Below are positions 7,996 to 37,148 of a stretch of DNA of 64,000 nucleotides, piece after piece. The stretch spans positions 54,438 to 118,437 of the forward strand of contig JADBKE010000008.1 in the NCBI GenBank assembly GCA_014896535.1, written 5' to 3'. How positions within the stretch are numbered: position 1 is the first letter of the stretch; every line of letters begins with the position of its first letter. The DNA comes from Candidatus Fermentithermobacillaceae bacterium. GTDB lineage: Bacteria > Bacillota > Sulfobacillia > Fermentithermobacillales > DUSS01. Below the pieces are notes generated by a model. That model had not been told where the DNA came from, did not search any database, and worked only from the letters and a program-made list of their open reading frames with translations. The position numbers were made by a program, and so were the translations under genes.

Positions 7996-8266
7996 GTTAT
8001 CCGGGGTTCATCTCGGTTGTTACTTTGTTGTTACTTTGTTGTTACTTTGTTGTTACTTTGGCCGAGCAGTGCCATGGCAAGGGCCTTGCGCAGTGCCAGC
8101 GTTATCCGGGCTTCAGATCGCTTGTTATCCAGGCTTCAACTAGGTTGCTATCCGGGCTCCAACTCGGCTGTTATCGGAGCTCCGACTCGTTGGGGACCAT
8201 AAATCAGGATTTTACGGCACGGTTGCATGACCTGTTTAAGGTTGTTATCCGGGCTCCAGCTCGTTG
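7996..8266. repeat. 23-bp repeat family (6 units, GTTATCCGGGCTCCAACTCGGTT-like) plus 4 x 11-bp tandem TTGTTACTTTG
   Basis: 23-bp units at 7996, 8101, 8124, 8147, 8170, 8244; 11-bp units 8017-8060. Last unit lies 4 bp from the corA stop codon. Confidence 0.9.
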
Positions 8267-8270
8267 GGGA

Positions 8271-9494
8271 TTAAATCCACCCTTTCCGCTTGAAGTACCA
8301 GACCATCACTCCGGTAATGACCGCCATGATGAGAAGGGCAAATGGATAGCCGAACTTCCAGTGAAGCTCGGGCATGTAGGCGAAATTCATGCCGTAGATG
8401 CCCGCCACGAGCGAAAGGGGCATCATAATAGTGCTGATCATGGTGAGAACCTTCATTATCTCGTTAAGTCTGTTTGACATGCTGGAAAGATAGGCGTCCA
8501 GCGCGTTGGAGAGGAGGTCGTGCAGGTTATCGACGTGATCGAAGAGTCTCAGAATGTGGTCGTACACGTCCAGGAAATAGGCCCTGTCGTCGCCCGTCAT
8601 AAACGGCTGATCCCGGCGCAAGAGCGCGTTCAAGACCTCGCGCTCCGGCGAAAGAGATTTCCTGATGCGGATTATGGTTCTGCGCAAGGAAAAAGCCTGT
8701 GCCAGGAGTTCCTGGCTGGGGCGCTGAAAAATACGCCGCTCGATATCCTCCAGGTGATCCTCGACCCGGTCGAGGACCGGAAAGAAATCGTCCACCAGAA
8801 CCCGCATTATGCGCTGGAGCAGGTAACCGGTGCTCCGCAATGAACCGGGTGCGGAGTGGCAGGCCAGGAGGTCGGCGTAAATCTGTTCGAGAGAGGGAAT
8901 CCTGTCCCAGTGAAACGTCACAAGGAACTTCTCGGATACGAAAACGTCTGTCTCGAGAGGCACGAAGAGGCCCGGACCCGCCTCCCACCGGTTGGCCAGC
9001 CTCCTGCCGGTGTCTTTCCCCCGTACACTCACCGCCCCGGGCCCAGCAGTGGGTCTCCGCTCCCCGGATCCACCGGCCACTCGCGCTCCCCCGACGCGGC
9101 CAGGACCATCGCCCGCTGCCGTTTGCCCCCGAACCTCGCTGCTCACGGAGTGAAGCACTATGAATAAATAGCCGGGATACTCGTCTACTTTGGGCCGCTG
9201 GAGCCGGTAGAGGCAGTCTTCGATGGCCAGGGGGTGGAAGCGGAACACTTCCCTCAATATCTCCACCTCTTCGTCGGTGGGAGCTTCGAGATCCAGCCAG
9301 AAGGGTCTCCCCGCGGAGAGGGCGTCCAGTATTCGTTTTTTTGCCTCTGAAACGTCCTTCATGATTCCCTCACCCGGTGCCCTATCGAATAGTCTCAGAG
9401 TCACGCTTATTCTCCTCCATCTCCCATGACTGAACTTGTCCGCCGCTGGAGCCGGGACGCTGCGACCCGACTTCCTCTGTCGCACGTTTCCCAT
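8271..9494 (-). CDS. corA: CorA-family magnesium/cobalt transporter
   Basis: C-terminal LVAGIYGMNFAYMPELHWKFGYPFALLIMAVITGVMVWYFKRKGWI (GMN motif); exact start uncertain. Confidence 0.92.
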   Translation of the reverse strand: MGNVRQRKSGRSVPAPAADKFSHGRWRRISVTLRLFDRAPGEGIMKDVSEAKKRILDALSAGRPFWLDLEAPTDEEVEILREVFRFHPLAIEDCLYRLQRPKVDEYPGYLFIVLHSVSSEVRGQTAAGDGPGRVGGARVAGGSGERRPTAGPGAVSVRGKDTGRRLANRWEAGPGLFVPLETDVFVSEKFLVTFHWDRIPSLEQIYADLLACHSAPGSLRSTGYLLQRIMRVLVDDFFPVLDRVEDHLEDIERRIFQRPSQELLAQAFSLRRTIIRIRKSLSPEREVLNALLRRDQPFMTGDDRAYFLDVYDHILRLFDHVDNLHDLLSNALDAYLSSMSNRLNEIMKVLTMISTIMMPLSLVAGIYGMNFAYMPELHWKFGYPFALLIMAVITGVMVWYFKRKGWI

Positions 9495-9808: not shown

Positions 9809-9889
9809 GCCGTTTGTTCAGCCTGGGATGCTTAAGCCGTCCGTTTAGCGCGGGATGCCAAACCCGTCCGTTCAGCCCGGGATGGTGGG
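9809..9889. repeat. 27-bp imperfect tandem repeat x3
   Basis: gccgtttgttcagcctgggatgcttaa / gccgtccgtttagcgcgggatgccaaa / cccgtccgttcagcccgggatggtggg. Confidence 0.8.
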
Positions 9890-9963: not shown

Positions 9964-10689
9964 TCAGAAGGTAAAATCCGCCTGCACGCTGGCCCTTATG
10001 GTGACAAGCCCAGGTTCTACCGGGGTGAAAGTTCCCTCAACACCGGCGAGAAGGCGGCCACGACCCTCCTCCACGCTGGCCCAGCCACCCGATATCCTGT
10101 AAACTCCCGTAATGGTGACCCCGGCAGCTTTCGCCATCGTCTCAGCTTTGCTCCGAGCATCGATCACCGCCTGTGCCAGGAGCTGTGTCTTAAGAGGTTC
10201 CGGATCCTGAAGCCCGAAAGAGATACCGCCAATGTTGGTAGCACCCGCTGCTACCGCTCTGTCGATGGCTTCTCCAATCCTCGCAATGTCTCTGATTTTT
10301 GCGACGACGGTGTTGTTGCACCGGTACCCGACGAGCACCTGCTTCTGTTCGGGTTTTTCTCCCCGCCATTCGTACACGGGGTAAAGGCTGAAGTTGGAAG
10401 TCTGGATGTCCTCCCTGGCGATACCCACCGCGAGGAGCGCCCGGACAACGGCGTCCATCGCCCGGGAGTTGGTTTGCTGGGCTTCAGCGGCGGTTGGCGC
10501 GTTTGTCTCCACTCCGAAACTGACCGTCGCCATATCCGGCTTTACCTGCATGGAAGCTTCGCCAGTAACGGAGATGAGCCTCGGCTGGGACTCTTCGGCG
10601 TGAACTTTCGTCGAAACTCCGGCGCCGCTCAATCCCAGCGCTACGATGAGCCCGAGAACCAGGACGATACTCAGGGTCCGCTTTGTCAT
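9964..10689 (-). CDS. SIMPL-domain (DUF541) secreted protein
   Basis: Signal peptide MTKRTLSIVLVLGLIVALGLSGAG; ISVTGEASMQVKPDMATVSFGVET...A..QTNSRAMDAVVRALLAVGIAREDIQTSNFSLYPVY. Confidence 0.88.
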   Translation of the reverse strand: MTKRTLSIVLVLGLIVALGLSGAGVSTKVHAEESQPRLISVTGEASMQVKPDMATVSFGVETNAPTAAEAQQTNSRAMDAVVRALLAVGIAREDIQTSNFSLYPVYEWRGEKPEQKQVLVGYRCNNTVVAKIRDIARIGEAIDRAVAAGATNIGGISFGLQDPEPLKTQLLAQAVIDARSKAETMAKAAGVTITGVYRISGGWASVEEGRGRLLAGVEGTFTPVEPGLVTIRASVQADFTF

Positions 10690-11060
10690 GATGATTACCC
10701 CCTTCGCAAGATTTGATCGGGCAAGCCTGGCCTGCATGCCCGGTGCACCCGACGGTTTCGACGTAAAAAGAAGGAAGTTGTTCCACCAGACGGGCTGATC
10801 CCTTACTGAGCAGAAGCTTCTGGAGCGTGGAATGGCGCCCACGGAGCTCAGGGGACTCTGCGCCGTCCATCTGCAGGTTCTTAACAAGGAGGTCTGCAAA
10901 GGGGCCTAAAATCCGGAAAGTGCTCTCGTCGCAGCACGTTTCTGTCAGGGGGGTTAATACCAGGACCTCAGGCAGGCCCCGGTTTCCGCCCCTGGGGTTA
11001 ACTGTTGACCGGGTCGAACGGTTCCGAGTCGGAAAGGGCCTGAAAAGTTTCACATCCGCC

Positions 11061-11819
11061 CAGTGCAAACGACGTTGGCACTCTGCACCCAGCACTCAGA
11101 TTCGGTGCAAGCAACGTTGGCACTGCCGACCTCTCAGCCTTACCCGGTGCAAACTATTTTGGCACCAGGCGCCTGGTTATCAGAGCCGGTGCAAACTATT
11201 TTGGCATCCGGCGACTCATCAACCGACCCGGCGCCAACCTCGTGGGCACTCAAGGTTCCAAACCCTGCTTGAGTGCAAATCTTATTGCCACCGGGCACCC
11301 CGCGAATCGCTTCAGTGCAAACCTAGTTGGCGCTGAGGGCTTCTGAACCCTCCCTGGTGCAAACGACCTTGGCACTTCGGCCCTGGCCATCCGGCCCAGT
11401 GCAAACCTCGTGGGCACTCGAAGCCCCAAACCCTGAGCCAGTGCAAACCTCGTTGGCACCGGGCACGCGGCAAGTTACCTTAGTGCAAGCTTAGCTGGCA
11501 CTGAAGGCCTCTAAGCCCTGCCCAGTGCAAACTATGTTGGCACCCAGCCCCCGGCCATTAGATCCGGTGCAAACTACGTTGGCACCCCGCGCCTCGCCCA
11601 ATCGACGCAGTGCAAAAGTTATGGGCACTGCAGGCCCAAGACCGTACTCCAGTGCAAACCTCATTGGCACTCACGCTTGTAGCAACGTTGCCGGCTATCT
11701 CCAAACCGTGCCCCAGTGCAAACCTCGTTGGCACCGGGTACCCCGCAAGTCACGTCATTGCAAGCCCGGTTGGCACTCAGAACTCCGCAACCCGCGTCGG
11801 TGCAAACTATGTTGGCACC
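11061..11819. repeat. 18-unit, 42-bp-period array with 22-bp dyad core and higher-order organisation
   Basis: Core starts at 11061, 11103, 11145, 11187, 11229, 11271, 11313, 11355, 11397, 11439, 11481, 11523, 11565, 11608, 11650, 11714, 11756, 11798; consensus cRGTGCAAACnnnGTTGGCACY. Confidence 0.95.
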
Positions 11820-11987
11820 GAGCAGCCCGCCCGGTAGTTACATCACCCCGCACCAACGCCATAGCCACCCCCGTGACGCTGTTCCTGGAGTTAGACGCAT
11901 AGGCCCGTATGAGCGGGAAGACGAGGCATGGTTGGTTATAGCAAAGAGAAGACCAAGATGGCTGGGAAAAGAATTTATGACTGGATG

Positions 11988-12169
11988 CTGGAGGCCCTAA
12001 ACCTGAGGTGCTAAACTTGAGGTTCTAAATTTGAGGTTCTAAATTTGAGGTTCTAAACTTGAGGTTCTAAACTTGAGGTTCTGAACCGGAGGTTTTGAAC
12101 CGGAGGTTTTGAACTTGGGGTTTTGAACTGGAGGTCTTAAACTTGAGGTTTCGAAATTGAGGTCTCGAA
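11988..12169. repeat. 14-bp tandem repeat x13 immediately 3' of glpX
   Basis: cttgaggttctaaa-like units in exact 14-bp register from 11988 to 12169. Confidence 0.95.
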
Positions 12170-12180
12170 CCTCAGCGCAC

Positions 12181-13173
12181 TTAGCGAACCCGCTTCCTCA
12201 CGAACTCGGGCTTCTTGTCCAACCGGTGTCTGGCTTCGATGAAGCGAATGGTGCCGGTCGTCCCGCGCATTACAACCGAGTGCGTGTAGGCCCACACTCC
12301 AGAATAACGCACACCCCTGAGGAGCTCCCCGTCGGTGACTCCCGTGGCCGCAAATATTACGTCATCTCCCTTCACGAGGTCATCCATGGTGAGCTTTCTT
12401 CGGATATCACCGATGCCCATGCTCTTCGCGCGCTCGACTTCCTCGGAGGAAACCGGCCACAGTCTCGCCTGCATCTCCCCGCCGACGCACCGCAGCGCCG
12501 CAGCGGACAGGACCCCTTCCGGTGCCCCACCGATCCCCGCCAGCACGTCCACACCAGAATCTTCGAATCCCACGGCCACGGCGGGCGACAGGTCTCCGTC
12601 TGGAATCAGCTTTACCCTGGCACCGGCCCTGCGTACGCCCGCAATCAAGCCTTCGTTTCTGGGCCGGTCGAGTATCACCACAACGAGGTCGCCAACGTTC
12701 TTTCCGAGCGCCGCTGCCACCCGCTCCAGGTTTTCTTCTATTGGCCGGTCCAGGTCGATCGCTCCTCGAGCTTTGGGCCCCACCGCCAGCTTCTCCATGT
12801 ACATATCGGGGGCATGCAGTAAGCACCCCTCTTCTGCGACCGCCAGCACTGACAGCGCCCTCGAGAGCCCTTTGGCCAGCACGTTGGTACCTTCCAGAGG
12901 ATCTACGGCCACGTCAACCCTGGGACCATTCCCGGTCCCCACTTTCTCCCCTATGTACAGCATGGGAGCTTCGTCCATCTCGCCTTCGCCTATCACTACC
13001 GTCCCGTCGATATCCACCGAGTTCAGGGCAAGCCTCATGGCCTTTACTGCAGCAGCGTCGCAAACTTCCTTGTCACCTGTGCCCATCAACCTGCCACAGG
13101 AAAGCGCCGCCGCTTCCGTAACCCTCACAAATTCAAGAGAAAGCTCCCTCTCCATTTCGTGGGCCATATTCAT
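12181..13173 (-). CDS. glpX: Class II fructose-1,6-bisphosphatase (GlpX)
   Basis: ELSLEFVRVTEAAALSCGRLMGTGDKEVCDAAAVKAMR...VVIGEGEMDEAPMLYIGEKVG...VDVAVDPLEGTN; start chosen at internal Met. Confidence 0.93.
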   Translation of the reverse strand: MNMAHEMERELSLEFVRVTEAAALSCGRLMGTGDKEVCDAAAVKAMRLALNSVDIDGTVVIGEGEMDEAPMLYIGEKVGTGNGPRVDVAVDPLEGTNVLAKGLSRALSVLAVAEEGCLLHAPDMYMEKLAVGPKARGAIDLDRPIEENLERVAAALGKNVGDLVVVILDRPRNEGLIAGVRRAGARVKLIPDGDLSPAVAVGFEDSGVDVLAGIGGAPEGVLSAAALRCVGGEMQARLWPVSSEEVERAKSMGIGDIRRKLTMDDLVKGDDVIFAATGVTDGELLRGVRYSGVWAYTHSVVMRGTTGTIRFIEARHRLDKKPEFVRKRVR

Positions 13174-13350
13174 CACCCCATTCACGGATGCCGATCCCGT
13201 CTTTCGTTTCCAATAATGCCGTGGTGCATCGTAGCAATCAAAACCCCTGACGCAGACATTACCCACTCGGCACGGCCCAGCTGGACTCGCCGTTCTATGA
13301 AACTCTAAAAGCGAGCTGCCCTCGAATTCGCTCTAGGCCGGAGGAACCCT

Positions 13351-15638: not shown

Positions 15639-15796
15639 CGTTGCCACCTCCATGCGGCGGATTTCTTTCACTCACGAGTATCGGAGGCAAATTTGAACGA
15701 AGATCGGAGGAGGATTTTAAGAAAGTTTTAATTCTCTACCGCTTCCCGACCGAGTCTCCGACGGTAGTGGAAGGCTTCGGGGAGGATTTTGATAAG

Positions 15797-15860
15797 GTCT
15801 TAATCGTCTAAAGTCTTAGCTGTGTAAACTCTTAATTGTATAAAGTCTTAATTGTCTAGC
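15797..15860. repeat. 16-bp tandem repeat x4 overlapping the stop of the histidine kinase gene
   Basis: gtcttaatcgtctaaa / gtcttagctgtgtaaa / ctcttaattgtataaa / gtcttaattgtctagc. Confidence 0.85.
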
Positions 15861-35674: not shown

Positions 35675-36041
35675 ACGCAGTCATTATAGCATCTTCCGGA
35701 ACCCGGCTTCAACCTGAGCCGCCCGCTAATCTACGGCACATACGCCGCAACACTTCTCGGACACGCTTCTAGGTGAAGTCGCACCGACGCGCAAGAGAGG
35801 GCGCTCGGTTCTACCGGGCAAGCACGTGTTCAAATTGCTCGAGCCGTAAGAAATCCGACCGAGATGGCGTTCTACTAGCCCTTTGAACGCATACATTCGT
35901 AAAGGAGCAGGCCCATCTCGGGTACCTCTAGCAGAGTGCGGACACGCATCCGGGCCTGCTCCCCTCTCATCACCGCTACAAGACCGCTGTCGCATCAGGG
36001 TCAACCAGCCCGCGGAGAACCGACGCTCGAGTCACATTCTT

Positions 36042-36136
36042 GGTCTTACGGTCTTATGGTCTTATCGTCTTTTGGTCTTTTGGTCTTTTGGTCTCTTGGT
36101 CTCTTGGTCTCTTGGTCCTTGGTCTCTTGGTCTTTT
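36042..36136. repeat. 8-bp tandem repeat x12 (GGTCTTTT/GGTCTCTT)
   Basis: Units in 8-bp register from 36042 with one 7-bp unit (36114-36120). Confidence 0.95.
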
Positions 36137-37031: not shown

Positions 37032-37148
37032 GGTCAACCTGGTAATACTAGTAAACCCGCTAAACCCAGTAAACCTAGTAAACCTGGTAAACCTAGTAGA
37101 CCTAGTAAATCTAGTAAGCCTAATAAGCCCGGTAAACCTGGTTAATAA
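37032..37148. repeat. 9-bp tandem repeat x13 (AGTAAACCT-like) just 3' of mnmA
   Basis: ggtcaacct ggtaatact agtaaaccc gctaaaccc agtaaacct agtaaacct ggtaaacct agtagacct agtaaatct agtaagcct aataagccc ggtaaacct ggttaataa. Confidence 0.95.

Follow-up and report, generated by a model that had tools for sequence, protein, structure and literature searches.

The DNA analysed here is a 64,000-nucleotide window of the genome G000 (1.95 Mb in 19 contigs), which belongs to a Candidatus Fermentithermobacillaceae bacterium, a family placed in the thermophilic class proposed in PMC10215811. Between a gene for a SIMPL/DUF541 protein and glpX, neither of which is part of the system described below, the window carries a tandem array of short palindromes (Table 1). 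Comparisons within the genus were made with Candidatus Fermentithermobacillaceae bacterium Tomsk_2_57_33 (G002) and with a third species that is its sister (G001, genome completeness 93%); G001 and G002 share 90.3% identity, versus 86% to G000 (over 9.9 kb). The genomes analysed are partly MAGs. Array loci are labelled L009 to L015 in G000, and L038, L039, L041 and L043 in G002.

Table 1. The palindrome array and its flanking genes, in window coordinates.
Feature	Position	Strand	Details
Whole array, 18 palindromic cores of 21 bp each, 42-bp register, intergenic	11062..11820	+	~760 bp; no overlapping coding ORF with suitable codon bias
Units 1-13, twelve consecutive exact 42-bp steps	11062..11586	+	Core starts 11063, 11105, 11147, 11189, 11231, 11273, 11315, 11357, 11399, 11441, 11483, 11525, 11567
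Units 14-15, preceded by a 43-bp step	11609..11671	+	Core starts 11610, 11652
Units 16-18, preceded by a 64-bp step (~6 helical turns)	11715..11819	+	Core starts 11716, 11758, 11800
Block duplication, 168 bp (4 units) x 2.1 copies, 73% matches	11225..11585	+	TRF
Flanking gene, SIMPL/DUF541 protein, outside the system	9964..10692	-	Pfam PF04402, E=3e-58
Flanking gene glpX, GlpX-type fructose-1,6-bisphosphatase, outside the system	12181..13266	-	PF03320, E=3e-142; 12181-13182 scanned

The cores span window positions 11063 to 11818, and a search of the window on both strands with a 19-bp core pattern (up to three mismatches) returned 33 matches, against 0.41 expected. An earlier note on this DNA had described 18 monomers in a 42-bp register with one 43-bp and one 64-bp exception, and this was confirmed: there are 18 cores, and 15 of the 17 steps between them are exactly 42 bp, with one of 43 and one of 64. 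The interrupted dyad that the earlier note had recognised as a 22-bp core was likewise borne out, with a conserved extent of 21 bp. The information-rich stretch is the palindrome R-GTGCMAAC-YWN-GTTGGCAC-Y, centred on A/T; its arm positions mostly carry ~1-2 bits, while linker positions carry 0.03-0.47 bits. The earlier note had also sorted the linkers into types (B C D E A) recurring as superunits of ~210 bp, and here the results diverge from it: by permutation test, linker identity in this array was 0.444 at lag 5 (P=0.28), 0.476 at lag 4 (P=0.07) and 0.532 at lag 9 (P=0.02), or P=0.083 once corrected over lags, and the TRF check that had been proposed recovered a four-unit period in the duplicated block only (Table 1). 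What stands of the proposed satellite-like higher order is a diverged tandem array with some block duplication; the five-unit period is not significant. A two-unit (84-bp) period was found in sister arrays elsewhere, at lag-2 P=0.0002 in L012 and 0.0056, 0.010, 0.027 and 0.033 in four G002 arrays.

Two other classes of repeat were considered for the array and rejected. A coding repeat would have its frame broken by the steps of 41, 43, 64, 71 and 85 bp, and none of the overlapping ORFs qualifies as a gene; ORFs traverse the array because 42 is divisible by 3. A CRISPR array was rejected on the grounds that the repeats vary at most positions, that the spacers are related within arrays, and that there are no cas genes among the scanned neighbours. 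Unrelated short repeats occur in the same region: a 14-bp minisatellite (CTAAACTTGAGGTT x 12; 11997-12163) lies 180 bp past the array, and intergenic minisatellites with 8-27-bp units are frequent in the window (8016-8060, 8101-8189, 9816-9884, 15793-15858, 36040-36136 and 37036-37139), and likewise beside other arrays. Relative to G001, the window also holds ~2 kb of extra sequence between conserved genes (8016-8189 plus 8271-9494), consisting of tandem repeats and a CorA-like ORF.

The same core recurs well beyond the window. A search of the genome and its relatives, as the earlier note had suggested, identified eight arrays of 10-22 units each in G000 (on contigs C8, C12 (two), C13 (three), C14 and C19) and at least seven in G002, where arrays lie on eight contigs, two of them carrying the broken halves of one array. 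Core pairs spaced 42 bp apart numbered 61 in G000 (up to three mismatches) and 0 in the reversed control. The G000 arrays are confined to five contigs that total ~0.69 of the 1.95 Mb, and the core array was absent from all others of the 61 relatives and from the other 398 genomes sampled across the phylum. All 14 arrays examined are intergenic, none of the 14 lies between divergent genes, and their neighbours are unrelated (SIMPL, GlpX, MFS, proteases, kinase).

The earlier note had held that the dyad core was kept while the linkers diverged, and had named equal divergence of the two as the outcome that would speak against it. Within arrays, identity averages 0.74 for cores and 0.41 for linkers, compared with 0.28 for shuffled linkers; the linkers are near saturation while the cores are not. 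A neutral satellite in which the whole unit evolves alike was rejected on these values. Spacing was similarly constrained: of the 195 steps in G000 and G002, 164 measure exactly 42 bp and 183 fall within 41-43 bp, and the remaining 12 (14, 31, 32, 63, 64, 71-74 and 85 bp) tend towards multiples of 10.5 bp (mean cosine 0.59, P=0.0015), the 14-bp step being probably a spurious match. We considered whether the arrays might be neutral minisatellites, that is, intergenic slippage repeats like the common 11-27-bp ones of this genome, with the core conserved by recent common ancestry. The genome is indeed rich in short intergenic tandem repeats, but we regard this explanation as very improbable given the exact register and the contrast between saturated linkers and retained cores, the presence of one core at eight loci and at orthologous sites in a second species, and, as set out below, linkage to a gene across the phylum and joint loss with it. 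The label satellite-like also passes over the whole-turn spacing, the eight dispersed arrays with a shared core, the link to a protein family and the loss of both together; the arrays resemble phased binding sites for a protein, not a satellite.

Whether the palindrome acts as DNA or as a folded single strand was addressed through its arms. Among 160 cores, no covariation between arms was detected (all P>0.2), and the commonest state at positions -5/+5 is an A.G mismatch. Since the arms vary independently and -5/+5 is usually mismatched, the palindrome would act as double-stranded DNA, and its sequence reads as an operator bound by a dimer, not as a hairpin. An RNA or single-stranded hairpin was rejected on the same lack of covariation and because Rfam gave no match at the array. 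The A+T-rich flank sought as a signature of a replication origin was not consistently present beside the arrays.

The largest G000 array (L012, C13:75.7-76.5 kb; G002 ortholog L043) lies 390 bp from a gene for a 271-aa protein, which is the only copy in G000 of a winged helix-turn-helix (wHTH) plus homing-endonuclease-like PD-(D/E)XK protein. In both G000 and G002 the array is 3' of this gene, not at its promoter. The N-terminal domain is a winged helix with PDB profile matches to MarR dimers (E=4e-6), and it weakly matches PHROG 'replication initiation' and 'O-like' families. The C-terminal domain matches PHROG homing or intron nucleases (9084, 7140 and 559; best E among members 6e-9) and has the conserved pattern D...ExN-G-x-QH...RDxxK, in which D155, E166, G169, Q171, H172, D192 and K195 vary little or not at all across the protein family. 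PD-(D/E)XK and EDxHD families have been reviewed (PMC3943268, PMC6083498). No Pfam or NCBIfam model scored above cut-off for the protein, and PADLOC defence models gave weak HTH matches only. A phage or plasmid origin of the full protein was rejected, as it was not found in phage or plasmid records; a search of IMG/VR with the protein gave no match, and a profile search matched mostly the nuclease domain alone.

We compared the arrays and the gene among the three species of the genus. Four G000 arrays (L010, L011, L012 and L015) have counterparts in the same gene neighbourhoods of G002, and linker identity between these orthologous arrays is 0.39, versus 0.34 for non-orthologous arrays. At L009, L011, L012 and L013, G001 keeps the syntenic genes with short intergenic gaps that hold no array, and it has no array at L010 or L014 either; genome-wide it contains one solitary perfect core and no array. 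That solitary palindrome is at L144:6956-6974 (G001 C49:11955), in the context GCCGGTTCAGTGCAAACCTCGTTGGCACCGGC. Because G000 and G002 share array loci, the arrays were lost on the G001 branch. The L013 and L014 arrays are absent from G001 and G002 alike, and array sites therefore also turn over. At the G002 locus of the L013 array (L055:16657-17415, C70) there is instead a pair of ORFs resembling a VapBC-type toxin-antitoxin system (AbrB-like and PIN-like, judged by eye).

The gene shared the fate of the arrays. A whole-genome protein search found no copy of the wHTH-nuclease-like gene in G001, and the syntenic spot retains a 77-bp fragment of it (84% identity) with a piece of its flank; gene and arrays were thus lost together in this one species, whose genome is 93% complete. 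The gene-less array L039 of G002 borders on a 155-bp remnant of the 3' end of this gene, and gene and array therefore co-occurred at more than one site.

These patterns bear on the possibility that the arrays organise the chromosome, with the protein a domesticated nucleoid protein whose nuclease domain is structural and the arrays bridging or anchoring the chromosome like parS/ParB or matS/MatP. Conservation of arrays at orthologous intergenic loci under apparent purifying selection, the position of all 14 outside divergent promoters and their restriction to five contigs would suit such a role. However, the gene is dispensable in the genus, being absent from G001, and elsewhere it is multi-copy and sporadic; its active-site residues are invariant, which a purely structural role would not need, and the array sites turn over between species. 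ParB likewise binds dispersed palindromic chromosomal sites (parS) as a single protein, but the protein family here is unrelated, the sites form tight tandem arrays in a three- or four-turn register, and the system is dispensable in the genus. On balance, we consider chromosome organisation unlikely.

The association between gene and array extends beyond the genus. Members of the protein family were found in 37 of 154 genomes of the class, where a single genome can hold as many as 11, and a sample of 399 genomes from the phylum contained 29 with a member. In the class, a tandem array was detected in the 800-bp flank (z>7) of 26 of 55 gene copies, compared with 10 of 140 control ORFs from the same loci, and the whole distribution differed accordingly (Mann-Whitney P=6e-11); with TRF, an array lay within 600 bp of 23 of 54 gene copies versus 13 of 136 control ORFs (P=7e-7), the gene copies in these comparisons being phylogenetically related rather than independent. 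A validation set of eight previously unused copies from lineages outside the class gave the same picture (6 of 8 with an array, P=1.5e-5). About half of the gene copies have no nearby array at this sensitivity. One G002 array is split by an assembly break between the end of contig C43 (L041) and the start of C10 (L038), and short contigs elsewhere carry many of the family genes; arrays are therefore probably under-counted in short-read assemblies. A correlation between flank similarity and protein similarity was dropped as confounded by synteny.

The arrays of distant gene copies differ in sequence, while clear dyads recur every three or four helical turns (32 or 41-42 bp). In G182 and G436 the palindromes are 19 bp long (CTGGTCC-N5-GGACCAG), with centres spaced by 32, 32 and 41 bp; a related motif has these spacings in G011 and ones of about 32, 32 and 30 bp in G028. 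Within L209, L213 and L082, 19-bp dyads stand at 32, 32 and 41 bp. Periods of 35 bp in relatives, which look unphased, resolve into 32+32+41 = 105. G007 has a 32-bp register adjoining the gene; 26 kb away lies a gene-less second array with this core, and a third array, of a related palindrome, is also in 32-bp register. At L140:5779-6053 (G007 C1:2.31 Mb), nine units of TGCGG-rAAtTT-yCCGCA stand in exact 32-bp register and resemble the gene-adjacent core of that genome; no family gene was found in the stretch examined. Overall, 10.5 bp is the period that best matches the peak lags of arrays beside the gene (mean cosine 0.50, versus ~0 at 9.5 or 11), although tandem arrays at a distance from the gene share this phase more weakly (0.33 vs 0.50, difference P=0.026), which limits the phasing argument across relatives. 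Dyads in relatives' arrays are clear one by one, but their enrichment as a class is suggestive and falls short of significance: 5 of 29 arrays near the gene versus 0 of 16 far from it (P=0.08), by a measure that failed to register L082 and L099, both of which have clear gapped dyads.

Two further explanations can be weighed against this wider distribution. A defence or DNA-antitoxin module, in which the array keeps a toxic or anti-phage nuclease inactive and array loss frees it, would account for the conserved nuclease motifs and target-like sites in the host genome, for the multi-copy, sporadic distribution, and for the observation that in this genus the gene was never seen without arrays. 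We nevertheless find it improbable: the PADLOC matches are confined to weak HTH hits, many copies in the class have no detectable nearby array, and G001 shows that both parts can go. The palindromes could instead be operators of a repressor-like protein, with the arrays titrating it or regulating their neighbours, as the MarR-like domain and the operator-like size of the palindromes would suggest. Against this, the array is placed 3' of the gene in G000 and G002, and arrays in the class (TRF) lie 5' of 14 copies, 3' of 6 and on both sides of 3; moreover, each array holds ten to twenty sites, divergent promoters are not preferred and the neighbouring genes are unrelated, all of which fits such regulation poorly, and we judge it quite improbable.

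We consider it probable that the array in the window is a docking platform for a homodimeric winged-helix protein, and a dispersed, gene-less copy of a gene-plus-array cassette. Each 21-bp palindrome would bind one protein dimer, with the fixed 42-bp (four-turn) step stacking or aligning all bound dimers along one face of the DNA, as in iterons, and the cognate protein would be the single wHTH plus homing-endonuclease-like PD-(D/E)XK protein of G000. The gene with its array would represent the ancestral cassette, and gene-less arrays, including that in the window, its dispersed copies, which would stay bound, and so be conserved, while the protein is present and be lost once its gene is lost. 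Conservation of the core where the protein is present, and loss where it is lost, argue that the arrays are bound and maintained in trans. We infer that the predicted protein binds these palindromes, that its nuclease-like domain may be active and cut DNA, and that host or element presumably benefits. Spread of the cassette in the manner of REP/RAYT or homing elements is the best fit to the nuclease-like domain, to the gene scars, to arrays being both gained and lost, and to gene-less copies being dispersed; we would give this mode of spread somewhat less than an even chance.

Several known systems share parts of this arrangement. As with REP/REPIN-RAYT elements (PMC3116915), extragenic palindromic repeats cluster next to a gene, present in a single copy, that encodes a DNA-processing protein, and copies lacking the gene are dispersed over the genome; several distinct pairs occur per genome elsewhere, and the motif is conserved while spacers vary. 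However, the linked protein here is wHTH plus PD-(D/E)XK-like, whereas RAYT is a Y1/HUH tyrosine transposase; the arrays hold 10-22 units in fixed helical register rather than REP doublets; and the arms do not covary, so that a hairpin is not indicated. The origin of phage lambda and plasmid iterons (PMC5043065), whose phasing is needed for function, offer helix-phased inverted repeats of 19-21 bp beside the gene of a winged-helix protein, and dimer binding as by lambda O would be expected here. In contrast to these origins, the present arrays are chromosomal and dispersed with many more sites, show no consistent A+T-rich unwinding region beside them and no phage or plasmid match, and a nuclease-like domain replaces the initiator C-terminus. 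The C-terminal domain and its conserved catalytic residues resemble phage homing endonucleases (PHROG 9084, 7140 and 559), but in this case the domain is fused behind a MarR-like wHTH in a stand-alone chromosomal gene, and it is associated with palindrome arrays rather than an intron, intein or single target.

No description of this system was found in the literature searched, the coverage of which is incomplete. We know of no such system ourselves. The broader proposal, which we hold to be evenly balanced, is that across the Bacillota every wHTH-homing-nuclease-like protein has a helically phased array of a palindrome specific to it and gives rise to gene-less arrays elsewhere on the chromosome, which selection would preserve while the protein is present; such a system would be a nuclease-based, double-stranded-DNA counterpart of REP/RAYT with iteron architecture. 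It would be a new example of repeats that depend on a single protein for their maintenance in trans, for which G001, where protein and arrays vanished together, serves as a natural knockout. A large unnamed protein family (29 of the 399 Bacillota genomes sampled) would thereby be tied to a DNA partner recognisable by sequence, in a natural series of matched protein-site-spacing sets (three-turn, four-turn and mixed). As each protein comes with a predicted site and spacing, the function of the family is directly testable.
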